From the NCBI GenBank assembly GCA_028282685.1, contig JANQHK010000025.1, forward strand, positions 1-64,000: a DNA stretch of 64,000 bases. Reading direction: 5' to 3'. Below the pieces are notes generated by a model that had not been told where the DNA came from, did no database searches, and saw only the letters and a program-made list of their open reading frames with translations. Position numbers and translations under genes: made by a program. Positions 1 to 11,573 of the stretch are shown piece by piece. Positions within the stretch are counted from its first letter, which is position 1, and each line of letters starts with the position of its first letter. Source of the DNA: Phycisphaeraceae bacterium (GTDB lineage Bacteria; Planctomycetota; Phycisphaerae; Phycisphaerales; Zrk34).

Positions 1-93
1 CGCCCAGAGTATGATAATACTCTGGGCGTTTTGCTGGAGCGCTACGGCTTCTCCGTCGAACCGCCCCGGACCACGAACGAAGAGGGTACCTGA
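1..93 (+). CDS. C-terminal end of an upstream gene, cut by the window edge
   Basis: The first reading frame is open from base 1 to a TGA at 91-93 and encodes about 30 residues ending in EEGT. The next gene starts 2 nt later, so this is probably the end of the preceding cistron in the same operon. An outer-membrane factor of the TolC type would fit before a HlyD-type adaptor, but the visible stub has no diagnostic motif. That identity is inference only. Confidence 0.55.
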   Translation, partial: RPEYDNTLGVLLERYGFSVEPPRTTNEEGT

Positions 94-95
94 AC

Positions 96-917
96 ATGCA
101 ACCGATTCCCCGATACACTTTACTCGCCTGCTTCCTGTGGGTCGGAATCTTCCCGGCGCTTGCTCTGGGACAAGTCGCCGCCGATCCGGTGCGCGGCCTG
201 GTGCAACCGGAACAACAGGTGCTGTTGAACGTAGAAATCGCCGGCAAAATCAAACAAATCAAAGCCGAGGAAGGGAATCAGGTTCTCCGCGGGCAACTGT
301 TGGTGGCCCTGGAAGACAGCGTACAGCAGCATGCCGTGGAAGCAGCGCAGTTACGCGCCGAATCGACCGCCGCGATACGCGAAGCCGAGTTGCAGAAGGC
401 CGAAGCCGAAGTGCAGTTGGATCAGATTATCAGCGCTTACGAAAAACAGGCCGCCAGCCAATGGGAGGTCCGCCGCGCCGCGTTGCAGGTGAAGCTGGCC
501 ATCGTCATGTTGGAAACCGCCAAGCAGGAGCACGAACTGGCCAAGGCCATGCTCAAGCTCGAACAGGCCCGGCTGGATCAACACCGCATTACCGCCCCGT
601 TCGACGGAACGATCGTGCGCATCCAGGGAGAACTCGGACAGACGCTCGGCCCCGATACCCCGGTATTGATGCTGATCGATCCGACCCAGCTCGAAGCCGT
701 TGTGCACGTACCGGTGGAATGGTACGGCCGCCTGGAAGTGGGAACAGAATATCCGTTGCACGCCGAAGCCCCGGTCGGTCGTGATTTGAATGCGAAACTG
801 CAATACATCGAACCGATGATCGATCCGGCGGCGCGCAGTTTTCGCTGTGTCTTCCTGATCGACAACACCGATCGCGCTCTGCCGGCGGGATTTGCCGTCC
901 AGATCAGTGAACCGTAA
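96..917 (+). CDS. HlyD/RND-type periplasmic adaptor (membrane fusion) protein
   Basis: The protein has 273 residues. An N-terminal signal peptide (about residues 1-26) is followed by a split lipoyl/barrel-sandwich domain: a first half with the motif VEIAGKIKQIKAEEGNQV and a second half with ITAPFDGTIVRI. Between them lies a long Ala/Glu/Lys-rich helical hairpin (about 80-160), and a beta-barrel segment follows. This is the layout of adaptors that link an inner-membrane pump to an outer-membrane channel. It is short for the family (usually 350 or more), with little C-terminal membrane-proximal domain. The start lies 2 nt after the preceding stop, indicating an operon. It converges on the SecA-like gene with an 18-nt gap. 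No pump ATPase or RND permease is visible nearby, so the partner is probably the facing operon. Confidence 0.85.
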   Translation: MQPIPRYTLLACFLWVGIFPALALGQVAADPVRGLVQPEQQVLLNVEIAGKIKQIKAEEGNQVLRGQLLVALEDSVQQHAVEAAQLRAESTAAIREAELQKAEAEVQLDQIISAYEKQAASQWEVRRAALQVKLAIVMLETAKQEHELAKAMLKLEQARLDQHRITAPFDGTIVRIQGELGQTLGPDTPVLMLIDPTQLEAVVHVPVEWYGRLEVGTEYPLHAEAPVGRDLNAKLQYIEPMIDPAARSFRCVFLIDNTDRALPAGFAVQISEP

Positions 918-935
918 ATATCAGCCGAGATCGTT

Positions 936-2936
936 TTACCCTTCTCGCCCGGCGAAGCCGAGATTCTCATCCAGCCAGTGATCGTGCTTCAGGACGTTCT
1001 TGCGCTGAAAGAGGGCGTGGTGTTCGGCCTTGCGCTGCGCCGCGTTGACCAACCAGTGGACGGGGAACCGTCCCTTCACGGCACGCCATCGCTTGATCCA
1101 CCAGGGGCAGTGGCGAACAATCACTTCATCGTCCAGTGAGACGAACATCACCGCGCTGCCCGGATCGCCCTGGCGCGCAGCGCGACCAAAAAGCTGGCGG
1201 TCGATGCGGCCCGATTCGTGCACATCGGTGGCGATCACGGCCAGTCCGCCCGCCTCCGACACGCCGCGTCCCAGTTTGATATCCGTACCTCGTCCGGCCA
1301 TGTTCGTCGCTACGGTGATGCGCCCCGGTTGGCCGGCCTCGGCGACGATCTGCGCCTCCTGCCGGTGCAGAACCGCGTTGAGCACCTGGTGCTCCAGTCC
1401 GGCTTCGGTTAAGCGGACTGAAAGTTGTTCGCTGTTGCGGACGTTTCGCGTACCGATGAGCACAGCCCGGCCGGCGTCGCGTAAACGGCGGGCGTGTTCC
1501 ACCACGGCTTCCCATTTCGATCCTTGGTCGGCGAAGTAACGGGACGGCTGGTGCTGACGGATGCAGGGCCGATGCGTCGGGATCCGCACGATCGGTCGAT
1601 GATAAATCTGCCACAGTTCGCTGCGCGCTTCCCAAGCCGTGCCCGTCATGCCGGCCAGCTTGGGATACATCCGGAAAAACCGCTGGAAGCTGAGCCGGGC
1701 GTAGGTGTCTTTCGGCGGGTTCACCTCGAGGCCTTCCTTGGCTTCCACGGCTTGGTGCAACCCCTCGCGCCAAGTGCGATCGGGCATCAGCCGGCCGGTG
1801 AACTCATCCACGATGACGATCTTGCCCTCGTCGACGACGTACTGTTTATCGCGATGGTAGAGTTCACGCGCGCTCAAGGCCTGCGTAATGAGTTCTTCGC
1901 TGCGACGGCGGCCGCGCCAGACGCCGTGTGAGGCGGCGGTCAATTCGGCGACGCGCTTTTTCCCCGCGCCGCTCAGTTCCACCTCGCGGTAACGCTGGTT
2001 GACACGATAATCGCGCCCCACTGTCAACTGCCGGGCGAATTCCGCAGCTTCGTTGAACGTGGCCACCTGCTCGTCGTTCGGGGCCTGGCCTGAAATGATC
2101 AGCGGCGTCACCGCCTCGTCAACGAGAATGGAATCGGCCTCATCGACCAGGCAAAACGCCAACCCACGCATCACCGTGCGTCGCAGACCCGGCCCGCCAT
2201 CGCCGGCCATGTCTTTCAGCAGCGCGGTCGAGAGCCCCTGCACAGGCCCCACCCCGAGACGATCGCGCAGGTAATCGGCGATCACTTCCTTGTTGGAGAC
2301 ATAGGTGATGTCGGCGTGGTAAGCGGCGCGGCGCTGGTCCGGCGGCATTTCGCCATGGATCGAAGCCACGGATAAACCGCAAAAGCGATAGACCGGCCCC
2401 ATCCATTCCGCATCGCGCTGGGCGAGGTAATCGTTAAACGTGACCACATGACAACCGCGGCCGCGCCAGCCGTTGATCACCACGGGCATCGTCGCCGAGA
2501 GCGTTTTGCCTTCACCGGTGGCCAGTTCAACGATGCAACCGTCCTCCATCGCCAGCGCCGCGGCAACCTGCACCGGATACGGCCGCATCCCCACCTGGCG
2601 TGCGGACACCTCACGGATTAATGCATACGCTTCGTCCACCTGCTCGGCACGGGCGCGGTTGAGACGAAACTGCTGCCGTAGTGTCTCGATCCGTTCGCGC
2701 AACCGCGCCTCGGACAAGTCGGAAAGCGTTTTCTCGGTTTCGCAGATCGCAGCCGCTCGGCGAAGAAACCGCCGACAGCGCGGCCGCTTGTTTTCAATCC
2801 AACCCACCAGGCGGTCCCATACCGCATCGGCACCGCGCGGCAAGGCATGATCCCCCGCGGCCTGGCTGAGCATGCGCCAGTCCGCGCTGGGCGGGCGGAT
2901 CACCGTTTCGGGTTGGGGTGGGTTGATCACCGTCAT
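936..2936 (-). CDS. SecA-like ATPase, shortened
   Basis: This 666-residue DEAD-type motor protein clearly belongs to the SecA family. The Walker A motif ATGEGKT is at 139-145 and the DEAD box at 265-268. An IVDEFTGRLMPDR segment lies near 374-386, AGMTGTA near 428, ATNMAGRGTDI at 543-553, and GRAARQGDPGSA at 584-595. All nucleotide-binding motifs are therefore intact. Only about 65 residues follow the last ATPase motif, whereas housekeeping SecA has roughly 200 or more, including the helical scaffold, wing and zinc-binding tail. It is therefore an accessory SecA-like protein rather than the main translocase motor. Its ATG lies 6 nt after the stop of the M50/HlyD gene, so it is the last cistron of that operon. 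A role in driving substrate export with its neighbours is inferred from context. Confidence 0.85.
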   Translation of the reverse strand: MTVINPPQPETVIRPPSADWRMLSQAAGDHALPRGADAVWDRLVGWIENKRPRCRRFLRRAAAICETEKTLSDLSEARLRERIETLRQQFRLNRARAEQVDEAYALIREVSARQVGMRPYPVQVAAALAMEDGCIVELATGEGKTLSATMPVVINGWRGRGCHVVTFNDYLAQRDAEWMGPVYRFCGLSVASIHGEMPPDQRRAAYHADITYVSNKEVIADYLRDRLGVGPVQGLSTALLKDMAGDGGPGLRRTVMRGLAFCLVDEADSILVDEAVTPLIISGQAPNDEQVATFNEAAEFARQLTVGRDYRVNQRYREVELSGAGKKRVAELTAASHGVWRGRRRSEELITQALSARELYHRDKQYVVDEGKIVIVDEFTGRLMPDRTWREGLHQAVEAKEGLEVNPPKDTYARLSFQRFFRMYPKLAGMTGTAWEARSELWQIYHRPIVRIPTHRPCIRQHQPSRYFADQGSKWEAVVEHARRLRDAGRAVLIGTRNVRNSEQLSVRLTEAGLEHQVLNAVLHRQEAQIVAEAGQPGRITVATNMAGRGTDIKLGRGVSEAGGLAVIATDVHESGRIDRQLFGRAARQGDPGSAVMFVSLDDEVIVRHCPWWIKRWRAVKGRFPVHWLVNAAQRKAEHHALFQRKNVLKHDHWLDENLGFAGREG

Positions 2937-2942
2937 GGCGTA

Positions 2943-5159
2943 TCACATCTGCACGCGGAAGCGACGCTGGACCAGTTGACGAAGCATGCGCCACCATTGC
3001 GCGATCAACGGCTTCTTCGGCAGATCGAACCGTGCAACGACGCGCTGACCGGGCAACACCTGCTCGGCGGCGTCCGACTCCAGGCGGATGCGCACTTCGA
3101 AGAACGGCTCGGCCGTCCGTCCGCCCTGAGGATCCTCCGGATCCAGCGCCACCGAACCGCCGGCCAGGTAACTGAGTGCCGGCGAGGGCAATTGTTGGTG
3201 TCCGCCCGGATCGATCCGATTGATGGCGCCGACCAGCTCCACATCGCTGCGCCCCATCAGGCGCAGGCGGACCGTGGCGTCTTCACCGGTACCGATTTCC
3301 GTATCGAGGCGCGGACCGAGAAACTGATCGGCCACGACACGTACTTCCAGTTCGCTCAGGTCAGCCACCAGACCCAACTCGGCGCCGCGAGGGATGTAAG
3401 CGCCGGCGAGTTCATCGGCCCGGGGGCAGAACCATAGGCCCGACCCACTCGATCGAACCACCAGGGCATCCACGCGTTTGCGCAACAAATCTTCACGCGC
3501 CTGAAACTTTGCGATCATCTGGTCGTACTTGCCGCGCGTCGCCGGGTCGTGAGGGGTGTAGATGTCGCGCATCGTTTCGAGCTTGCGACGCTGGGCGCGG
3601 CGCTCGTCCAGTTCCGCTTGCAGTTCATCGTTTGCGATAACCGCCAGGGGCGGGTCGGTCGGAGCGACGGCGATGTTCGTGGGGCGCACCTTCTCGATGA
3701 AGCCGCCCTCGCCCGCATGCACCACGGTGTATCGACACGGTACGACGAATCCCTCGGCGCGGCTGCGATCGGGCACACGGATCAACCCGATACTCACGAT
3801 CAGCACAACCAGGAAACCCGTCGTCACACCCACGGCGCGGCTGCGCGTCTTTTGCAACTCCGCATGGGTGGCCAGATAGTGAAAGAATTTGCCCAGCGGT
3901 ACAAAACCCCAGACGACGATTGCCGCCGCCGCCATCGCCACACCGACCACCGGAAGCGCCTCGGCGATAAACCACAGAATAGCCGCGAGAATGAACACGC
4001 GGTAGATCGTCGAGGCAATGGCATAGACGAACAACCAGAATCGCTCTCCACCGGTGTGCGCCACCGGACGCGCCTTCTTAACGCCAAAAACGTAACGCTT
4101 GACCAGGTAATACAGGTGCTGCTTGCTGCGCTGGGCGAGGTTGGGAATCTCCAGAAGGTCGGCAAGGATGTAATAACCATCGTAGCGCAGCAGCGGATTG
4201 CCGTTGAACAGTATCGTGGTGATCGAAGCCAGGAAGACCATGTTGTAGGCCAGCGCATTGATCGGCAGTCCCAGGACTTGCGAACCCTCGGAGGTGCGCG
4301 CCCAGACGATGGCGGCCACGGCGGCAACGGCCAGTTCGACGTACATGCCCGCCGCCGCGACAAACGCCCGCCGCCACTTGCTGCGAAACGCCCAGGAACT
4401 GGTGGCGTCCACGTACGGCACGGGCATCAGCACCAGCAACATGATGCCCATGGTGTGCACGTCACCGCCCGAGCCGTCCCTCTCGCCAAACCGCTTGCAG
4501 GCGAAGCCGTGGCCGAACTCATGGATCACCTTGATCAGTGCGAAGCTGACGTACAGCAGGATCAGGTTATCACCCTTCAGCATTTCCTGGGGATTGGCTC
4601 GGCTGATCAGATCGCCCCAGTGCCCGGCCATCTGCCATCCCGCCACCGCCAACAGCGCCACCCACAGGACCAAGCCCACCGGGCCGAACAACCAAGCGAC
4701 CGCTCCGATCCATCTGTCCAGAATACGCTGCGGATTGAACAGGGGAATGCGCAGAAAAAGAAAATTCGACAGGTAACCGCGCACTTCGCGCCCGACGCGC
4801 TTGCGATAACGTTCAAACAGTCCCCGTGCATCGCCGGGTAAATCGGCTTGAAGAAGGTTGGAGGTGTAAAGTTGGCCGAGTAACTGGATCACTTCGCCTT
4901 GCGTGGGCGCGGAATCGCCGAGCTTTTCGTTGGCGATCTCCCAAGCCCGCGCCACGGTGCGTCGGCCATCGAGCAGAGCGACGAAGAAGTAACTGGCATC
5001 GTTCAACCGGAAAAACTGGTTGCTCGACGGATCGCGAACCACGTGCCACGGCTGGCCGCGGAAGTGTTGGCGATAAATCTGCACCGCCGCACGCAACTTC
5101 GGCTTCAATTCCGTAACGCGGTACCAGTTCTCAGAGAATGTCGGCCGATCCACCGCCAT
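2943..5159 (-). CDS. PqqD-like / M50 site-2-protease-like / HlyD fusion protein
   Basis: The protein has 738 residues in three parts. Residues 20-105 look like a PqqD-type winged-helix domain (WHVVRDPSSNQFFRLNDAS, then DGRRTV). Residues 155-460 form a multi-pass membrane region with the zinc-protease motif HEFGH at 213-217 and a second motif NPLLRYDGYY at 321-330, as in M50 site-2 proteases. Residues 465-738 are a periplasmic HlyD-like arm with a coiled-coil hairpin near 510-565 and a beta-barrel. Proteins of this build are called putative peptide zinc metalloproteases of the YydH type. PqqD-like domains bind leader peptides in RiPP systems, so a peptide substrate is possible, but no precursor gene is visible nearby. 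The catalytic motif is intact. The gene starts 10 nt after the GAF-HlyD gene. Confidence 0.85.
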   Translation of the reverse strand: MAVDRPTFSENWYRVTELKPKLRAAVQIYRQHFRGQPWHVVRDPSSNQFFRLNDASYFFVALLDGRRTVARAWEIANEKLGDSAPTQGEVIQLLGQLYTSNLLQADLPGDARGLFERYRKRVGREVRGYLSNFLFLRIPLFNPQRILDRWIGAVAWLFGPVGLVLWVALLAVAGWQMAGHWGDLISRANPQEMLKGDNLILLYVSFALIKVIHEFGHGFACKRFGERDGSGGDVHTMGIMLLVLMPVPYVDATSSWAFRSKWRRAFVAAAGMYVELAVAAVAAIVWARTSEGSQVLGLPINALAYNMVFLASITTILFNGNPLLRYDGYYILADLLEIPNLAQRSKQHLYYLVKRYVFGVKKARPVAHTGGERFWLFVYAIASTIYRVFILAAILWFIAEALPVVGVAMAAAAIVVWGFVPLGKFFHYLATHAELQKTRSRAVGVTTGFLVVLIVSIGLIRVPDRSRAEGFVVPCRYTVVHAGEGGFIEKVRPTNIAVAPTDPPLAVIANDELQAELDERRAQRRKLETMRDIYTPHDPATRGKYDQMIAKFQAREDLLRKRVDALVVRSSGSGLWFCPRADELAGAYIPRGAELGLVADLSELEVRVVADQFLGPRLDTEIGTGEDATVRLRLMGRSDVELVGAINRIDPGGHQQLPSPALSYLAGGSVALDPEDPQGGRTAEPFFEVRIRLESDAAEQVLPGQRVVARFDLPKKPLIAQWWRMLRQLVQRRFRVQM

Positions 5160-5169
5160 GGCGGGTTAC

Positions 5170-7041
5170 CTAAAACCAGAGTTTCATCCGAAGCCAGTTC
5201 ACCAGTTTGCGCGTCCAGATTTCGACGTAGCGGCGTTTCTCCACGTCAATTTTCGCCAAACCGGTCACACTGGGTTTGAGCGGCGGCGACTCCGCGCCCC
5301 CCAATGTCAATCGGACACGCACCTTGAACACGTTCTTCTGATCCACCACCTCGGCCATGGGATCGATCCGCTCGACTTCGAACCGCACGTACACGCCGGG
5401 GTGTGAGGCGGAAGCCAGTTTCCCGGTCTGACCGACCTGCACATCGGCGATCTGGCCTTCGGTCACGTGCAACACGGCTTTCAACTCGGCCAGCGAGGCC
5501 ACTTCATAAAGCTCTTCGCCGACCTGAACTTCCTTGCCGACCTGGCGTGTCCAATCGCCTTTGAGCACGCGGCCGTCGATCGGCGCCGTCAGATTCGCAC
5601 GTTCGATACGCCCCTGGAGCAACTGAATGCGCGCGGCAACGGCCTCGGCGTCGGCCCGCGCCACACTCGCCTCGCCCTGCTTGCCGTCACGCAGCGCGAT
5701 GTCGGCCTCGCGCAGGTAGGCCTGATGACGCGACACCGCATCGAGCAATTCGTCCTCGAGTTCCGTGGTGTTCAGCCGCGCCAACACGGTTTGTCCGGCC
5801 TGCACGGTATCGCCCGGTAACGCCGGGGCTTCGGCCAGCATGCCCGTGTAGGGCGCCGAGATGGATCGTTTGAGGGTCGGCTCGATCACGAACGGCGCTT
5901 CCACGCGGTACATTCCGCGTGCGAACACGGTAAACAGCAGGAAGGCCGCCACCGCCGTGACACCGAGTTTCACCCAGGTATGTTTCGGCCCGACCAAAAA
6001 GCCGGCGCTCTTGCGCATGCCCGAAGCCAACCGTGCGCCGAACCAGCGATCGTGCTCGCGTAAATCTTCCAGACGCGCGGTGCACAATTCACAGATCAGC
6101 CGCAGCGATTCCACCTCCATGAGGGTCAGCGGCCGATCCGCCGCCCGCTCCACGCTCAGTGCGCCGATGACGCGCCCCTCGCTGCGCAGCGGCAGGACGC
6201 AAATCCAGTTGGGGCCGTGGCGTACTGACAATTCTTCACAGGCCCGATGGACGTAATCCGCCTCCGGCGGCGCCGGATGAATGATCTCGGTGTCCTGGTC
6301 GACGCATTCCTCCATCGCCGACTCGACATCCTGCACCAGCTTCACTTTTCGCGTGAACTTTTCGGTATGGCTGAGCGCCTGGAGTTTGACATACTGTCCG
6401 GACACCCAACCCAGCCCCACGCGCTCGGCCGACCAGCGCGCCGTCGTCTCGTTGCACAGCGCCATGGCGCTGGCCTTGAATCGGCGTTGCGCATTCACCG
6501 CCGCCAGCACTTCCATCGCCTCGCGCAGTCTCGCCAGGTCCTGGTTGCGCTGCTGCACGGTCAAGCGCATCTCGTACAGACTGAGCAGATTGACGGTCAG
6601 TTCAAGGCGCTGGCGTATCTGTTCCAGATGGGTCGGGTCATCCTGCGCCAGAAGAAACGCGTTCACCCCGCGTAATCCCGAGCCGCCCCGGATCGGCAAC
6701 AGCGCCAAGTGTTCGCCGACTTTCTGGCCGTACAGGGCGTCTTCGCGATGCAGCGGGACGAGCATGGATTTGGCCTGGCTCGCCACCTGCCCCGCCGCCC
6801 CCATCGCCACGGGCAGCCAGGGCGGCGCCTGATCATTTTGCAGAGGCGGGTGGATCGACGCCACCGACGGCCCCTGCGGCGTGAGGCGCAGAATCGCCGC
6901 TGCCTGCGCCGGTCCCAGCCGGCATTGGATCGCAAGCAACATCTGCAGAAAATGTTCCGGGGGACCGTCGTAAGCCAGGAGCTGATCGATCAACTCGGTA
7001 GGCGTATCGCCCGGGACGGTTTCGATCACGCGCTGGTCCAT
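5170..7041 (-). CDS. GAF-domain protein with a transmembrane helix and HlyD adaptor domain
   Basis: The protein has 623 residues. The N-terminal half is cytoplasmic with a GAF-like fold (about 165-325, including the stretch RHGPNWICVLPLRSEGRVIG). One membrane helix lies near 357-375 (LGVTAVAAFLLFTVFARGM). The C-terminal 245 residues are a membrane-fusion domain with two lipoyl halves (APYTGMLAEAPALPGDTV and LTAPIDGRVLKG) around a helical hairpin. A sensory domain on the cytoplasmic side of an adaptor is unusual and suggests that export is gated by a ligand; that is inference. The gene is second in the minus-strand operon, 40 nt after the DUF3467 gene and 10 nt before the M50 fusion gene. The start is the first ATG; no strong Shine-Dalgarno is visible. 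Confidence 0.82.
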   Translation of the reverse strand: MDQRVIETVPGDTPTELIDQLLAYDGPPEHFLQMLLAIQCRLGPAQAAAILRLTPQGPSVASIHPPLQNDQAPPWLPVAMGAAGQVASQAKSMLVPLHREDALYGQKVGEHLALLPIRGGSGLRGVNAFLLAQDDPTHLEQIRQRLELTVNLLSLYEMRLTVQQRNQDLARLREAMEVLAAVNAQRRFKASAMALCNETTARWSAERVGLGWVSGQYVKLQALSHTEKFTRKVKLVQDVESAMEECVDQDTEIIHPAPPEADYVHRACEELSVRHGPNWICVLPLRSEGRVIGALSVERAADRPLTLMEVESLRLICELCTARLEDLREHDRWFGARLASGMRKSAGFLVGPKHTWVKLGVTAVAAFLLFTVFARGMYRVEAPFVIEPTLKRSISAPYTGMLAEAPALPGDTVQAGQTVLARLNTTELEDELLDAVSRHQAYLREADIALRDGKQGEASVARADAEAVAARIQLLQGRIERANLTAPIDGRVLKGDWTRQVGKEVQVGEELYEVASLAELKAVLHVTEGQIADVQVGQTGKLASASHPGVYVRFEVERIDPMAEVVDQKNVFKVRVRLTLGGAESPPLKPSVTGLAKIDVEKRRYVEIWTRKLVNWLRMKLWF

Positions 7042-7081
7042 GGCTGGGGTAACCTGTACGAAAAAAGTGACGGCTTACCGA

Positions 7082-7429
7082 TCACCCTTTGGCGCGGTCG
7101 GCTACATTCATCTGCAACTCACCGAACTGTTCTTCGTGATTGCGGACTATCTGGCCGAGCGTGATCGCCAGGCGTTTGGCCGTGTAATAGTTCATGATCA
7201 CGCGGTCGTTGACCTTGAACAGCACATTATCGCCTTCGCCTTCGGAACCGCCGGCGGGACGCACGATATTCAATCCGCAGTCGATCATCACTTCATCGGC
7301 CGTTCCGTTGGTGCGAAACGCGTTGCAGTAGCTCGTGTCCATGTCGCGCTCATCCACGTGCACGGTAACCTTGCGTTGGCCGGTCTGCTGCTGGGCCTGT
7401 TCTTCGATCGGTTGTTCCTGGTCAGCCAT
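7082..7429 (-). CDS. DUF3467 family protein
   Basis: The protein has 115 residues with an acidic, Gln-rich N-terminus. The core (DEVMIDCGLNIVRP, then FKVNDRVIMNYYTAKRLAITL) matches the DUF3467 family, whose function is unknown. The ATG at 7429 is chosen over an upstream in-frame start because AGGAAGG lies just before it and because a TATAAT hexamer at 7481-7486 would put the mRNA start downstream of the longer start. It is the first gene of the operon that continues into the GAF-HlyD, M50-HlyD and SecA-like genes. The position suggests that it serves or regulates that system, but nothing in the protein itself shows how. It is soluble, with no signal peptide or membrane segment. Confidence 0.85.
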   Translation of the reverse strand: MADQEQPIEEQAQQQTGQRKVTVHVDERDMDTSYCNAFRTNGTADEVMIDCGLNIVRPAGGSEGEGDNVLFKVNDRVIMNYYTAKRLAITLGQIVRNHEEQFGELQMNVADRAKG

Positions 7430-7713: not shown

Positions 7714-10677
7714 TCAGCAACGCGAGCCGCGCCGCCACCGGCGCTTCTTCTTCGTGTGACCGCCATCATCATTGCCGCGGTCATCTCCGCGTTCGCGATC
7801 GTCACCATCATCGTCGTGCTGGTAGGACGTGCCACAACGGCCGTCGTCGTCACCGCGACCGTCGTCGTCGTCACCGTGGCCACCGCCCCAGCTACCGCAA
7901 TGCGAACCCCACTTCTTGAACCACTTGAACAGGTACCAGAACATGTGGCCGCCGCAGTGGTGGTGCCGGCTCTTGGGACGTTCGCCGAAGTTGTAGTCCA
8001 TGGCCTGGTCGCCGGAGCCGAGCAGGATGTCCACGATCTTGTCTTTGTTGCTGATGGCCGTGCCGCCCAGGTTGCCGGCGGTGTCCTTGCCGTCCTTGTA
8101 ACCGCGGGGCTGCTTGGGCTGATACACCTTGTAGGTGCCGGGCTTGAGGTTCTCAAAGTGGTAGGCGCCGTTCGAGTCGGTGTAGGTGTACTTGCGGATC
8201 TTTTTGCCGCTTTCGGTCGTGCCGTACAGCTTGACCTTCACGTTCTTGATGCCTTCCTCGCCATCATCCTTGATGCCGTCGTTGTCTTCATCGACGTAAA
8301 CGTGGCCCCAGATGCTGGCCGGATCGGGTTTGGAATGGTCACCGTTACGGTAGTGGCTGGAATCGCTGTCGCTGACCTGGCCCGCCGTCACGGTGGCGGT
8401 GTTGCCGTAAACGCCCGGCTTGGGCTTGGGACAGCAGAAGCAGTAGCACCAGCAGCCGCCATGGCGGTCGCCGCCCAGTGCCTGGGCTACGGCGCTGACC
8501 TCGTAGGTCCAGGTTTCACCCGGCGAGAGGATTCCATCGGCGCCGACATCGCTTGAGGCCACAAAGTCCGGCGTGAAATCGTCGCTGGAGTCGCTGGGCG
8601 TGCCGTTGTCATCGACCACCTCGACCTGTTCAAACGTAAACGCCACTTCGCCGGTGTTGGTCACCAAATAGGTCCACGTGACCGTATCTCCCGCGGCAAT
8701 TTCGACCGCGTCCTTCTTCGTATCGGCGTCAACGCCGTTGGTCAGTTTCTCGATGTCAATTCCCTGCACGGGCGGCGGGACCACCGGGAACATGTGCATG
8801 TCCATCGCATCCAGGTCCGGCAGATCAAGGTCGCCCGGATCGCGCGGATCGCCGGTGACCACCGCGGTGTTCTTGATCTTGCCCTCGAGCGTTCCGAGAA
8901 TCAGATCGGCCACCGCACCGCTGCTGAGCAGGTGCACTTCCATCCGCGAGACGTTGTCGGTATTGATCATCACGCGCTGGTAGCTGTTGTTCGACAGGTT
9001 CAGCAGCGGGTTAACGCTCAGCAGAGTGCCGGACGCGTCGTAGGTCTTAATCGTGCCGCCCGGTTCGTTGTGATCGACGTCGATCACCGCGACGGACTCC
9101 ACGGTGCGCGGCGTGTCGAAGGTGAAAATCAATTTTCCACCCCGGGCGTTGTCGTCCGGATCCGATGAGTCGCCGTCTTCGGAGATAATCAGGATGTTGC
9201 CCAGCGACTGGCTGTTTTCACCCGGGGCGCCGCTGGAGCCGCCCGAACCAATGCCCGGACCACCGAAATCGATGTTCGGCGTGCCGAGGTCGGTATCGCC
9301 GCCGGTCGGATTCGCCGAATCGAAGATCATCGCAGGGTGCTTGGTCTGATTGTGCGACGACACCGTAATGCCGGCTCCGAGGAACTCGTCATCGATGATC
9401 TGGCCGGCCGTCAGCGGCGAACCACCGGCATCGGTCTCGAAATCAATCGTGGTGGTCCCGAACGACAGGGGGATGGTGTAATCGGCGGTGACGAGCTTCA
9501 TCTCGCCGGGATTCAGCGTCCCGGTGAACAGCGGATTCGACGGATCGATCAGCGGATCGTTCAACGTGGCCAGATCGATGGGCACGTCGCCGGTGTTGGT
9601 GATCTTGAAGGTGTAAGTGACGATTTGTCCCGGATAGCCCTGGTCGGGGCCGGTCTTCTCCAACTCGAGGCCGGTCGTGAAGAAACCAAAGTCGAGCGTC
9701 GGATCGAACTGATTTGCCGTCAGGGTGGTCTGATCGGATTCCGGCGCCGAGGTGCGGGCGCCATCGCTGTCGACGGCATCGTCGGATCCCTGATTCTGCA
9801 GTGTCGGGAAGAAGTTTTCCAGAGCGCCGCCGCCATTGAAGTTCGTCGAAGCCACGCGGGTGCTGTAGGTGCCCGGGTCCAGCTCGATGAACTGGTAGAA
9901 GCCGGTGTTGTCGGTGGTGGTGGTGCCGATCACCGATCCGCCGGCGTCCAGCAATTCAACCACCACGCTCTCAATGCCCGGCTCGTTATCGTCCTGAATG
10001 CCGTCGACATCCTTATCGTGCCAGACGAAATCACCGAGACCGGCATCGGACTGACCGGTGCCGCCGCGCGTCGAGCCAAGCGTTCCCTTCGCCCCGCCGC
10101 TGAAATCGACGGTGTAATCGCCGGCGTAGGTCGAGCTTTCGCTGGTCATGTTGATGCCCAAGCGGTTGGGATAGAACCCCGCGTCAAACAATTCACCACC
10201 GGTGGGTGTGAAGATGAAGTCGTAAGCATCGGTGGGGCCGCCGGAGTCTTGCGAACCGAACTGGAGAATCTCACCGGTCAGCAGAACGCCCGAATAATCG
10301 ACAACGAAATCACCGTCGACATCGGCCTGGCCGGTAACCACCAGATCATCGCCCGGCACGCCGCCGATCAAATTGCCGGCGTTATCCACCTTGATATCGA
10401 TCAGGAACTGGGCGGGCGAACCATCGGCGTTAACGAAAATAAAGCCGAGGGGACCGCCGACCGTTTGCTGGAAGTTCAGCGGCGTGGCGTCCACGCTCAG
10501 GGCCTGCGCGCTGGCGTCGTAGCTGATCGTGCCCTGGTTGTCATACTCGAGAAACGGCGCTTCGGGCGACACACCAATCAACGTGGTCGACAGTAGCATG
10601 CGCGGCTCGAGACCTTCAAACTGTGGGATGGCGGATTCCGATCGGTTCGGGGTTCTGGTCTGATGGGTATGCTTCAT
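7714..10677 (-). CDS. Large secreted/surface protein with LEPR motif, SdrD B-like and DUF11-like domains
   Basis: The protein has about 987 residues. The N-terminus carries LEPRMLLS at 23-30, the planctomycete LEPR-x-LL-S motif found on large extracellular proteins. Two SdrD B-like (Cna-B-type) beta-sandwiches carry calcium-type DxDxDG loops, one near 215-275 and one near 800-890. Between them lie conserved-repeat (DUF11-like) segments of the form GQIVTYTFKITNTG. A Cys-rich insert CWCYCFCC interrupts one such domain. The C-terminus is strange: a His/Trp-rich patch, then a long Asp/Gly-rich stretch, then a basic end KKKRRWRRG. The start at 10677 is chosen for its AGGAAGG site. An adhesin or matrix role is inferred. 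Position next to the export operon makes it a candidate substrate, unproven. Confidence 0.8.
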   Translation of the reverse strand: MKHTHQTRTPNRSESAIPQFEGLEPRMLLSTTLIGVSPEAPFLEYDNQGTISYDASAQALSVDATPLNFQQTVGGPLGFIFVNADGSPAQFLIDIKVDNAGNLIGGVPGDDLVVTGQADVDGDFVVDYSGVLLTGEILQFGSQDSGGPTDAYDFIFTPTGGELFDAGFYPNRLGINMTSESSTYAGDYTVDFSGGAKGTLGSTRGGTGQSDAGLGDFVWHDKDVDGIQDDNEPGIESVVVELLDAGGSVIGTTTTDNTGFYQFIELDPGTYSTRVASTNFNGGGALENFFPTLQNQGSDDAVDSDGARTSAPESDQTTLTANQFDPTLDFGFFTTGLELEKTGPDQGYPGQIVTYTFKITNTGDVPIDLATLNDPLIDPSNPLFTGTLNPGEMKLVTADYTIPLSFGTTTIDFETDAGGSPLTAGQIIDDEFLGAGITVSSHNQTKHPAMIFDSANPTGGDTDLGTPNIDFGGPGIGSGGSSGAPGENSQSLGNILIISEDGDSSDPDDNARGGKLIFTFDTPRTVESVAVIDVDHNEPGGTIKTYDASGTLLSVNPLLNLSNNSYQRVMINTDNVSRMEVHLLSSGAVADLILGTLEGKIKNTAVVTGDPRDPGDLDLPDLDAMDMHMFPVVPPPVQGIDIEKLTNGVDADTKKDAVEIAAGDTVTWTYLVTNTGEVAFTFEQVEVVDDNGTPSDSSDDFTPDFVASSDVGADGILSPGETWTYEVSAVAQALGGDRHGGCWCYCFCCPKPKPGVYGNTATVTAGQVSDSDSSHYRNGDHSKPDPASIWGHVYVDEDNDGIKDDGEEGIKNVKVKLYGTTESGKKIRKYTYTDSNGAYHFENLKPGTYKVYQPKQPRGYKDGKDTAGNLGGTAISNKDKIVDILLGSGDQAMDYNFGERPKSRHHHCGGHMFWYLFKWFKKWGSHCGSWGGGHGDDDDGRGDDDGRCGTSYQHDDDGDDRERGDDRGNDDGGHTKKKRRWRRGSRC

Positions 10678-10910: not shown

Positions 10911-11573
10911 CTACGCCGCCATGGGGGCTTTTCGTCTCCGTCGGCCGGCCAAGGCCATCAGTCCGAAGATCGTCAACGAGGCCGGCTCGGGAACCTTGAA
11001 CGTATCCATGGTGGCCGATCCGTCGCTGTCATTGCCGGAAAAATCCGATGTAAAATCGACAAACGTCGTGCTGTTGCCCGGCCGGAGAATCACGCCGATC
11101 GTCGGCGAGAACTCATTGTTCAGCAAACCGGTCTCACTTTCCACCTCGGCGGGCGTTCCGAGAAACTCGAACAGGGTCTGCGAGCCCGTGCCCGAAAAAC
11201 CGAAGTCGGTCAGTGTCGCCGTCAGCAGCGTGCCTTCCAAGAAAATTCCTGGAGGCGGATTGTTAATGACCCGGCCCTGGATGACCAGCGTTCCTCCGAC
11301 AAGATTGCCGTTCTGGTCGATTTCCGCGTCAAGCGTGACAGAGACGCCGCCGCTTGCGGGACCAACCGCCGGGCGCGTCGTCCCATCGCCTTCGGTGTAC
11401 TGGTTCAATGTCGCGGTGACCGAGAAGGCATCGATCGTTGCGTCGTAAGTCGTCGTGATATCCACGCTCGAGTTCAAGTCCGGCAGCATCATCGTCAGAT
11501 TCAAAGGCGCTGCCTGGACCACACCTGCCATCAAAAGGATGGCACAAACACTCAGCCATTTCGCTCTCTGCAT
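10911..11573 (-). CDS. PEP-CTERM sorting-domain protein
   Basis: The protein has 220 residues with a clear signal peptide (about 1-21, ending VVQAA). The C-terminus has the exosortase recognition layout: VPEPAS, a hydrophobic stretch LTIFGLMALAG, then RRRRK. The middle is a predicted beta-rich extracellular domain with no motif I recognise. PEP-CTERM proteins are exported by Sec and then processed by an exosortase at the membrane; no exosortase gene lies in this window. A GGGAGC ribosome binding site precedes the ATG. The gene has its own unit, with about 180 nt to the next gene downstream. Confidence 0.88.
   Translation of the reverse strand: MQRAKWLSVCAILLMAGVVQAAPLNLTMMLPDLNSSVDITTTYDATIDAFSVTATLNQYTEGDGTTRPAVGPASGGVSVTLDAEIDQNGNLVGGTLVIQGRVINNPPPGIFLEGTLLTATLTDFGFSGTGSQTLFEFLGTPAEVESETGLLNNEFSPTIGVILRPGNSTTFVDFTSDFSGNDSDGSATMDTFKVPEPASLTIFGLMALAGRRRRKAPMAA

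Follow-up and report, generated by a model that had tools for sequence, protein, structure and literature searches.

Proteins of 5,000 to 15,000 residues abound in planctomycetes and their relatives, and it is largely unexplained how bacteria export them. The question is raised by the window analyzed here, the first 64,000 nucleotides of a contig of a Phycisphaeraceae bacterium (JANQHK010000025.1), in which a cluster of genes for adaptors, a membrane protease and a SecA-like motor lies next to the gene for a LEPR-XLL surface-type protein. An earlier note, made from the sequence alone, had described four coupled minus-strand genes that face a HlyD adaptor gene, and this holds for all five genes including their positions (Table 1), though its label GAF-TM-HlyD is only partly correct since there are two GAF domains in this protein. 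Gaps of 6, 10 and 40 bp separate the four minus-strand genes, while the HlyD gene, whose product begins with an N-terminal hydrophobic export signal, and the SecA gene converge with 18 bp between them. The contig begins at base 1 of the window, and the region upstream of the HlyD gene therefore lies outside our data; a TolC-type outer-membrane partner is encoded on another contig of the source genome, beside a second LEPR protein. We consider it likely that this cassette is a dedicated export machine for LEPR-XLL proteins in which the pump of a type I or tripartite exporter has been replaced, a function that we infer without experimental evidence.

Table 1. Features of the cassette and of the neighboring LEPR-XLL gene, in window positions
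Feature	Position	Strand	Remarks
HlyD/RND-type periplasmic adaptor (membrane fusion protein)	96..917	+	273 aa; TIGR01730 5.9e-40, HlyD_3 3.7e-18
Short SecA-family ATPase	936..2936	-	666 aa; SecA_DEAD 1.3e-99, SecA_PP_bind, P-loop_SecA (Pfam)
RRE(PqqD)-M50 site-2 protease-HlyD fusion	2943..5159	-	738 aa; seven hydrophobic helices
Tandem-GAF-TM-HlyD adaptor	5170..7041	-	623 aa; AF2 model, structure matches
DUF3467 small cytosolic-looking protein, accessory	7082..7429	-	about 115 aa; PF11950 6.4e-14
LEPR-XLL surface-type protein, likely substrate	7714..about 10677	-	NF012209 21.9 bits, cut-off 17
LEPR-XLL leader motif QFEGLEPRMLLSTTL	10558..10623	-	near the N-terminus of the likely substrate; family match and consensus of 38 N-termini

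Gene content and order across genomes

The core of the cassette, composed of the tandem-GAF-TM-HlyD, RRE(PqqD)-M50-HlyD and short SecA genes, recurs in dozens of genomes of Planctomycetota, Verrucomicrobiota, Proteobacteria, Desulfobacterota, Nitrospirota and other phyla, usually with a further HlyD adaptor and often with DUF3467 and a TolC-type channel. Gene order is kept as well as gene content: across a set of 80 public loci, SecA directly follows M50 in 68 of 72 and GAF-HlyD precedes M50 in 68 of 71. Many loci have a HlyD-type gene next to the cassette, and in the relatives L032 and L037 it converges on SecA as in the window. DUF3467 adjoins the cassette in 16 of the 80 public loci. TolC-family genes at cassette loci (with an OEP domain in 27/27 clustered neighbors) were found in only 20 of the 63 public loci with room, a count that rests on a weak profile, and the channel may be encoded elsewhere. 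On a Methylosinus plasmid, all seven genes stand in a row in the order LEPR giant-DUF3467-GAF-HlyD-M50-SecA-HlyD-TolC; further carriers include Roseateles, Bradyrhizobium and rhodobacterial plasmids. Roseateles cellulosilyticus P8, Methylosinus sp. C49 and Pseudosulfitobacter sp. DSM 107133 are examples of carriers that are in culture and non-pathogenic.

An accidental neighborhood can be rejected because the arrangement is conserved across dozens of genomes, and a phage or plasmid artefact of the window because copies occur in contigs of many phyla, some of them on plasmids. The earlier note had conceded that its idea would fall if the genes did not co-occur in related genomes, a check that it survived in two independent genome groups. 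Its count of three adaptor domains, a membrane protease and a SecA-type motor without any ABC or RND pump fits the conserved gene content, in which HlyD domains are found in three proteins and no ABC gene is included (ABC-type genes lie near few loci only). Besides M50, the cassette encodes no conserved polytopic inner-membrane channel, and the pore is thus unidentified. No description of a SecA/HlyD/M50/PqqD/TolC/LEPR system was found in the open-access literature searched, which did not cover preprints and subscription journals, and open-access searches on giant proteins as well as a daptide-directed search likewise yielded none. The cassette is a widespread, phylum-spanning and apparently undescribed gene set. 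The earlier note had missed the TolC-type outer-membrane channel and did not see that the PqqD domain has an RRE-like fold for leader binding, that the LEPR motif sits at the N-terminus or that the set spreads far beyond planctomycetes.

LEPR-XLL proteins as likely substrates

The LEPR-XLL protein of the window, one of four LEPR proteins in the source genome, carries SdrD_B and DUF7507/DUF11 domains, a Cys-rich patch and a His/Asp-rich tail. N-termini of LEPR-XLL proteins are basic, lack a hydrophobic signal and end in [LM]ExR-x-LL[SA], the leader as a whole having [FL]ExLExRxLL[SA]. For 38 of them, from which a consensus was drawn, the median maximal hydropathy is 1.18 compared to 2.29 for the N-termini of TolC proteins. 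The motif lies at the protein N-terminus in 18 of 19 cases. Physical linkage to the cassette is shown by LEPR motifs clustered just after SecA, by LEPR giants of up to ~14,400 aa that abut the cassette and by LEPR ORFs within 10 kb of 18 of the 37 strong Burkholderiales M50 loci (17/18 on the same strand). The likely substrates include proteins that rank with the largest known from bacteria. Many other LEPR genes are not adjacent to a cassette.

At the level of genomes, the link is near-total in two unrelated groups. M50 is present in 26 of 27 LEPR-positive Planctomycetota genomes versus 67 of 294 overall (p=5e-18) and in 26 of 27 LEPR-positive Burkholderiales genomes versus 42 of 200 (p=1.3e-20), with odds ratios of 143-255; these counts were replicated across two groups and 15 families but are otherwise uncorrected for phylogeny. 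A generic effect of genomes rich in surface proteins can be rejected, since the PEP-CTERM control gave odds ratios of 3.0 with LEPR and 2.0 with M50, far below 143. In the opposite direction, a LEPR match is missing at the E-value used from about 60% (41/67) of M50-positive planctomycete genomes. We note that these LEPR-less planctomycetes carry distant M50 paralogues, often without SecA, that may do something else. The earlier suggestion that the LEPR neighbor is a possible substrate is strongly supported because of the twofold 26/27 co-occurrence with M50, the adjacency and the common N-terminal motif.

Alternatively, LEPR proteins might carry C-terminal signals and leave the cell by an ordinary type I route (ABC/HlyB-HlyD-TolC), with the M50/SecA cassette next to them serving another purpose, for instance processing or regulation. 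This reading can point to the RTX-like GGxGxD repeats of many LEPR giants, to a Vibrio LEPR-XLL giant with C-terminal RTX and serralysin domains (PMC10868602) and to the HlyD and TolC parts that the cassette shares with type I systems. However, LEPR shows no association with the RTX type I ATPase LssB in Burkholderiales (8/27 versus 59/200 genomes, odds ratio 1.0), the common feature of LEPR proteins is N-terminal, and an ABC gene is not part of the conserved cassette. Nearly all cassette-linked giants examined also lack RTX repeats in their last 300 residues (L138 has them), though a C-terminal signal cannot be excluded from sequence. We therefore regard this alternative as very unlikely.

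Folds of the cassette proteins

The AF2 model of the M50 fusion (pLDDT 92.5) matches lasso-peptide B1 leader-binding proteins over residues 20-105 (Z 9.8; TbiB1 and another lasso B1 with leader peptide, Z 9.7-9.8), the site-2 protease mjS2P (3b4r) over residues 136-339 (Z 9.1) and MacA over residues 460-724 (Z 16.3). Top-ranking Foldseek hits were adaptors only, and the RRE and S2P matches come from the VIA second look. The model thus predicts a single polypeptide in which a site-2 protease core is flanked by an RRE fold and an adaptor, and a PqqD Pfam match is seen in 10 of 21 members. H213, E214 and H217 of the HExxH motif and the distal D327 lie in membrane helices and are invariant in 64 sequences. 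The nearest named family is the daptide (RiPP) maturation protease NF041824 (1e-44), with a score of 153 bits that falls below the curated cut-off of 300 bits. From fold and genome association, we infer that the RRE domain likely serves leader recognition, for which there are no binding data.

These similarities also support another alternative, in which a small RiPP-like peptide is what the cassette makes or exports and LEPR proteins are simply inherited along with it: both the PqqD/RRE domain and M50 have relatives among daptide and epipeptide maturation proteins, and the RRE fold resembles lasso-peptide B1. Yet neither the small precursor gene that the earlier note had proposed to look for nor a tailoring enzyme was seen as a conserved gene among the clustered neighbors of at least 100 aa, a negative result that does not extend to ORFs under about 60-100 aa (no systematic search). 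Long LEPR proteins, in contrast, recur in these neighborhoods, and together with the near-total co-occurrence described above this makes the RiPP alternative very unlikely.

The short SecA runs from NBD1 through the preprotein cross-linking domain and NBD2 into the beginning of the scaffold helix, and its profile aligns to about residues 10-611 of the 841 residues of B. subtilis SecA. Walker A GEGKT, DEAD and GRAARQGD motifs are all present, while the wing/scaffold, two-helix finger and C-terminal linker are lacking. Among its relatives, 57/57 have the DEAD, PP_bind and P-loop domains and only 2/57 have SecA_SW. Three loci encode short SecAs that are far from any cassette and adjoin LESRTLLS/LEDRTLLS proteins.

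SecA2 systems serve special substrates, and the short SecA might accordingly be a SecA2-like accessory motor on SecYEG, with M50/HlyD only releasing or handing over the chain. Its clear SecA ancestry and SecA domain order through the cross-linking domain and NBD2 speak for this view, in which the use of SecYEG is itself inferred. Against it, the wing, the scaffold and the finger region that enters SecY are missing in 55 of 57 relatives, neither SecY2 nor Asp genes were seen in the conserved neighborhood, the substrates have no Sec-type hydrophobic signal and a fully supported branch of the tree separates the short SecAs from 11 canonical planctomycete SecAs. We thus consider an accessory role on SecYEG unlikely.

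For the GAF protein, the AF2 model (pLDDT 92.9) matches MacA-type adaptors and the GAF-A/GAF-B segment of PDE2A, and its relatives have HlyD domains in 51/51 and a GAF domain in 41/51 cases. No solved structural relative of DUF3467 was found, and a known chaperone fold was rejected for this protein on that ground without a structure prediction.

Proposed mechanism and relation to known systems

In the export machine that we favor, the RRE domain of the M50 protein would bind the basic, non-hydrophobic LEPR leader in the cytosol, and the short SecA, encoded beside M50 in one operon, would spend ATP on threading the long, unfolded polypeptide into the membrane, either through a ring of M50/HlyD or through borrowed SecYEG, between which we cannot decide. 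M50 would act as an intramembrane protease that cuts the leader or a stalled end, and the tandem GAF domains may gate the machine upon binding of a cytosolic ligand. Both the M50 and the GAF protein would contribute their periplasmic HlyD domains, alongside the stand-alone HlyD, to a conduit that leads to the TolC-type channel; for this step, folds and gene content are shown while the assembly is inferred. Transport, leader cleavage and complex formation are without experimental data. The earlier proposal of a SecA-like motor and a site-2-type protease in place of the pump is supported and was right in outline.

A bolder reading, toward which we are inclined to be skeptical, would have M50, GAF, HlyD and TolC form a self-contained trans-envelope conduit that is independent of SecYEG, driven by the finger-less SecA and passed in one go by chains of up to about 14,000 residues whose N-terminal LEPR leader is bound by the RRE domain; our reservation applies to these elements as one joint claim. 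The favored export machine would likewise be a case in which SecA acts without its finger and leader recognition of the RiPP type serves very large proteins. Since named strains carry the cassette as a candidate machine along with a signal-like motif, the question of giant-protein export becomes directly testable.

Among known systems, the NCBIfam entry NF012209 (LEPR-8K, LEPR-XLL domain) already names the N-terminal motif of the likely substrates, but it is catalogued as a domain, and no link to an exporter was found in the literature searched. RiPP systems such as daptide NF041824 and lasso B1-B2 similarly join a PqqD/RRE fold to a HExxH membrane metalloprotease, whereas the cassette M50 has an extra HlyD domain and does not reach the daptide cut-off, its likely substrates measure 400 to about 14,400 aa and no modification enzymes were seen. 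With SecA and SecA2, the cassette SecA shares NBD1, the cross-linking domain, NBD2 and intact ATPase motifs, but it lacks the C-terminal quarter and sits on a separate branch of the tree, and the accessory Sec system differs further in that the cassette has no SecY2 and its likely substrates no Sec signal peptide. Type I and tripartite exporters (HlyB-HlyD-TolC, MacAB-TolC and EmrAB-TolC) resemble the cassette in their HlyD/MacA-fold adaptors, TolC-family channel and large surface substrates of the RTX, Big or cadherin type. Unlike them, the cassette has a SecA relative as motor instead of an ABC, RND or MFS pump, adaptors that carry a fused protease or fused GAF domains, and a signal-like motif that is common to its likely substrates and N-terminal.

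Genes at the start of the contig

The earlier note had read positions 1-7429 as four coupled minus-strand genes facing a HlyD-type gene, and this reading held: all are real open reading frames with clear family matches. The window begins with the contig, which hides whatever precedes the HlyD gene.

Cassette genes and neighbouring genes of the window
Feature	Position	Strand	Basis
RND-type adaptor (HlyD)	96-917	+	family match
SecA-like	936-2936	-	family match
PqqD-M50-HlyD	2943-5159	-	family match
GAF-TM-HlyD	5170-7041	-	family match
DUF3467	7082-7429	-	family match
LEPR-XLL protein	7714 to about 10677	-	family match
PEP-CTERM protein, adjoining LEPR gene	10911-11573	-	

The genome holding the window (2.94 Mb) has its closest named relatives among the Phycisphaerae. 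Its best TolC match follows a second LEPR gene at a distance of 130 bp. It also contains at least 27 PEP-CTERM matches, so PEP-CTERM surface sorting and the LEPR set coexist there. At 7714-8500 (minus strand) the window's LEPR protein has a patch rich in Cys (GCWCYCFCCPKPKPG) and a tail rich in Asp and His, which suggests metal binding.

Conservation of the cassette and its association with LEPR-XLL proteins

The M50 protein (PqqD-M50-HlyD) has matches in 67 of 294 Planctomycetota genomes. For 40 of the matches the surroundings (up to 20 kb) show adjacent GAF-HlyD and M50 genes; HlyD and DUF3467 are frequent too, and closer relatives add the short SecA beside them. The best 80 loci returned by a public-genome scan with alignment A1 span Planctomycetota, Verrucomicrobiota, Alpha-, Beta- and Gammaproteobacteria, Desulfobacterota, Nitrospirota, Elusimicrobia, Omnitrophota and others, though these are record names and some belong to possibly mislabelled metagenome bins. 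SecA directly follows M50 on the same strand at 68 of the 72 public loci with room (57 by script plus 11 whose annotated start only extends further upstream), GAF-HlyD precedes it at 68 of 71 (66, and two more whose starts overlap), and clustering revealed a TolC-family outer-membrane protein as a further recurrent neighbour (PF02321 in 27/27 members). M50 persists at nine distant planctomycete loci, usually accompanied by GAF-HlyD and HlyD. No SecA lies in their vicinity, and they could depend on another motor or on a SecA encoded elsewhere. Within about 10 kb, the cassette repeatedly has response-regulator genes (ten fetched loci) and sulfatases (eight) as neighbours.

Proteins with the catalogued LEPR-XLL motif (NF012209) occur in 27 of the 294 phylum genomes, drawn from 15 families, and 26 of these 27 carry the M50 gene (p=5e-18). 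Among 200 Burkholderiales genomes the picture is the same (27 with LEPR, 26 of them with M50; p=1.3e-20), and the sole exception owes its LEPR match to a 23-residue frame. LEPR proteins are found in 21 of 24 Burkholderiales genomes with a strong M50 match versus 5 of 18 with only weak paralogues. As controls in the same genomes, PEP-CTERM gave odds ratios of 3.0 with LEPR and 2.0 with M50, and LEPR was not associated with the type I secretion ATPase LssB (odds ratio 1.0).

The two are also physically linked: a LEPR frame lies within 10 kb of M50 at 18 of 37 strong Burkholderiales loci, 17 times on the same strand, and these frames of up to 14,414 aa end just upstream of the cassette or begin just after it. 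Across fetched loci the motif sits near the protein start in 18 of 19 cases, with positions clustering 2-6 kb after M50. A Methylosinus plasmid shows the full row of LEPR giant (about 8,850 aa), DUF3467, GAF-HlyD, M50, short SecA, HlyD and TolC, and a Pseudosulfitobacter plasmid that of LEPR-XLL gene (38.8 kb), GAF-HlyD, M50, short SecA and HlyD. At three examined loci of other planctomycetes, cassette-distant short SecAs adjoin LESRTLLS or LEDRTLLS proteins. Two genomes each carry a head-to-tail pair of LEPR giants (8,400-14,000 aa) separated by about 1 kb or less.

The 38 N-termini compared share a mostly basic stretch followed by [FL]Ex[LM]ExR-x-LL[SA][AG] and contain no hydrophobic stretch: their median best hydropathy is 1.18, versus 2.29 for TolC N-termini. 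The remainder comprises Ig-like, PKD, cadherin, laminin-G, SdrD_B, DUF4347 or protease domains, a repertoire that fits secreted proteins. In several proteobacterial giants upstream of the cassette, a short [ILV][DEA]W motif (mostly IDW) precedes the C-terminus by 17-37 residues and is conceivably a second sorting or anchoring signal.

Protease-adaptor, GAF adaptor and motor

The M50 protein was modelled with AlphaFold2 from 64 sequences (pLDDT 92.5). By VIA comparison the model resembles leader-bound structures of lasso-peptide B1 proteins over residues 20-105 (5v1u, Z 9.8; 6jx3, Z 9.7), the Methanocaldococcus site-2 protease 3b4r over 136-339 (Z 9.1) and MacA-type adaptors over 460-724 (Z 16.3). 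Another protein, GdmN, matches the same N-terminal stretch (Z 10.3), and the RRE assignment therefore relies on the fold together with the PqqD match in Pfam. Residues H213, E214, H217 and D327 are invariant; leader cleavage is inferred from these conserved catalytic residues and the protein's relatives, of which the daptide protease is the nearest named family, with a score below the family cut-off. From seven hydrophobic helices we infer that RRE and HlyD domain lie on opposite membrane sides. The GAF adaptor (pLDDT 92.9) is built from a pair of GAF domains, one transmembrane helix and an adaptor domain. Its structure matches MacA as well as PDE2A, the latter in the GAF-A/GAF-B segment.

The DEAD, preprotein cross-linking and P-loop domains of SecA are present in every one of the 57 short SecAs, and the ATPase motifs are intact; only 2 of 57 show a wing/scaffold domain. 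Aligned with the 841 residues of Bacillus subtilis SecA, the family profile covers about positions 10 to 611; the wing, the scaffold and the two-helix finger of full SecA come after that point. In a tree of 78 sequences, a single branch (SH-aLRT 100) separates 67 short from 11 canonical SecAs, the latter all from Planctomycetota and the method a quick one without bootstrap. RefSeq labels the short SecA of two plasmids (fetched loci L213:15074-17098 and L214:17222-19138), the Methylosinus plasmid among them, 'prepilin peptidase', and the profile is clearly SecA. The SecA-position gene of another locus (L045:11156-13105) shares only 25% identity with the window SecA across 426 aa, in contrast to its neighbours, and may be a different motor.

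A putative export line compared with known systems

The earlier note had proposed an exporter with a SecA-like motor and the neighbouring LEPR protein as possible substrate, and we consider export of LEPR proteins by the cassette likely, though inferred. Together the parts would span the envelope as a line that lacks a conventional pump: the RRE would read leaders in the cytosol, the short SecA would be the ATP motor, M50 the membrane protease, HlyD-type proteins the periplasmic adaptors and a TolC-type protein the outer-membrane channel. The motif was already catalogued, and we found no description of the machine in searchable literature; since preprints and most subscription journals lay outside this search, an earlier one cannot be excluded. 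The absence of the finger and of signal peptides speaks against the standard Sec mode, and SecYEG as inner-membrane pore is neither shown nor excluded. The cassette lacks the pump that defines type I systems, and cassette and likely substrates fall short of the domain and signal features that define Sec/SecA2; we therefore file it under neither.
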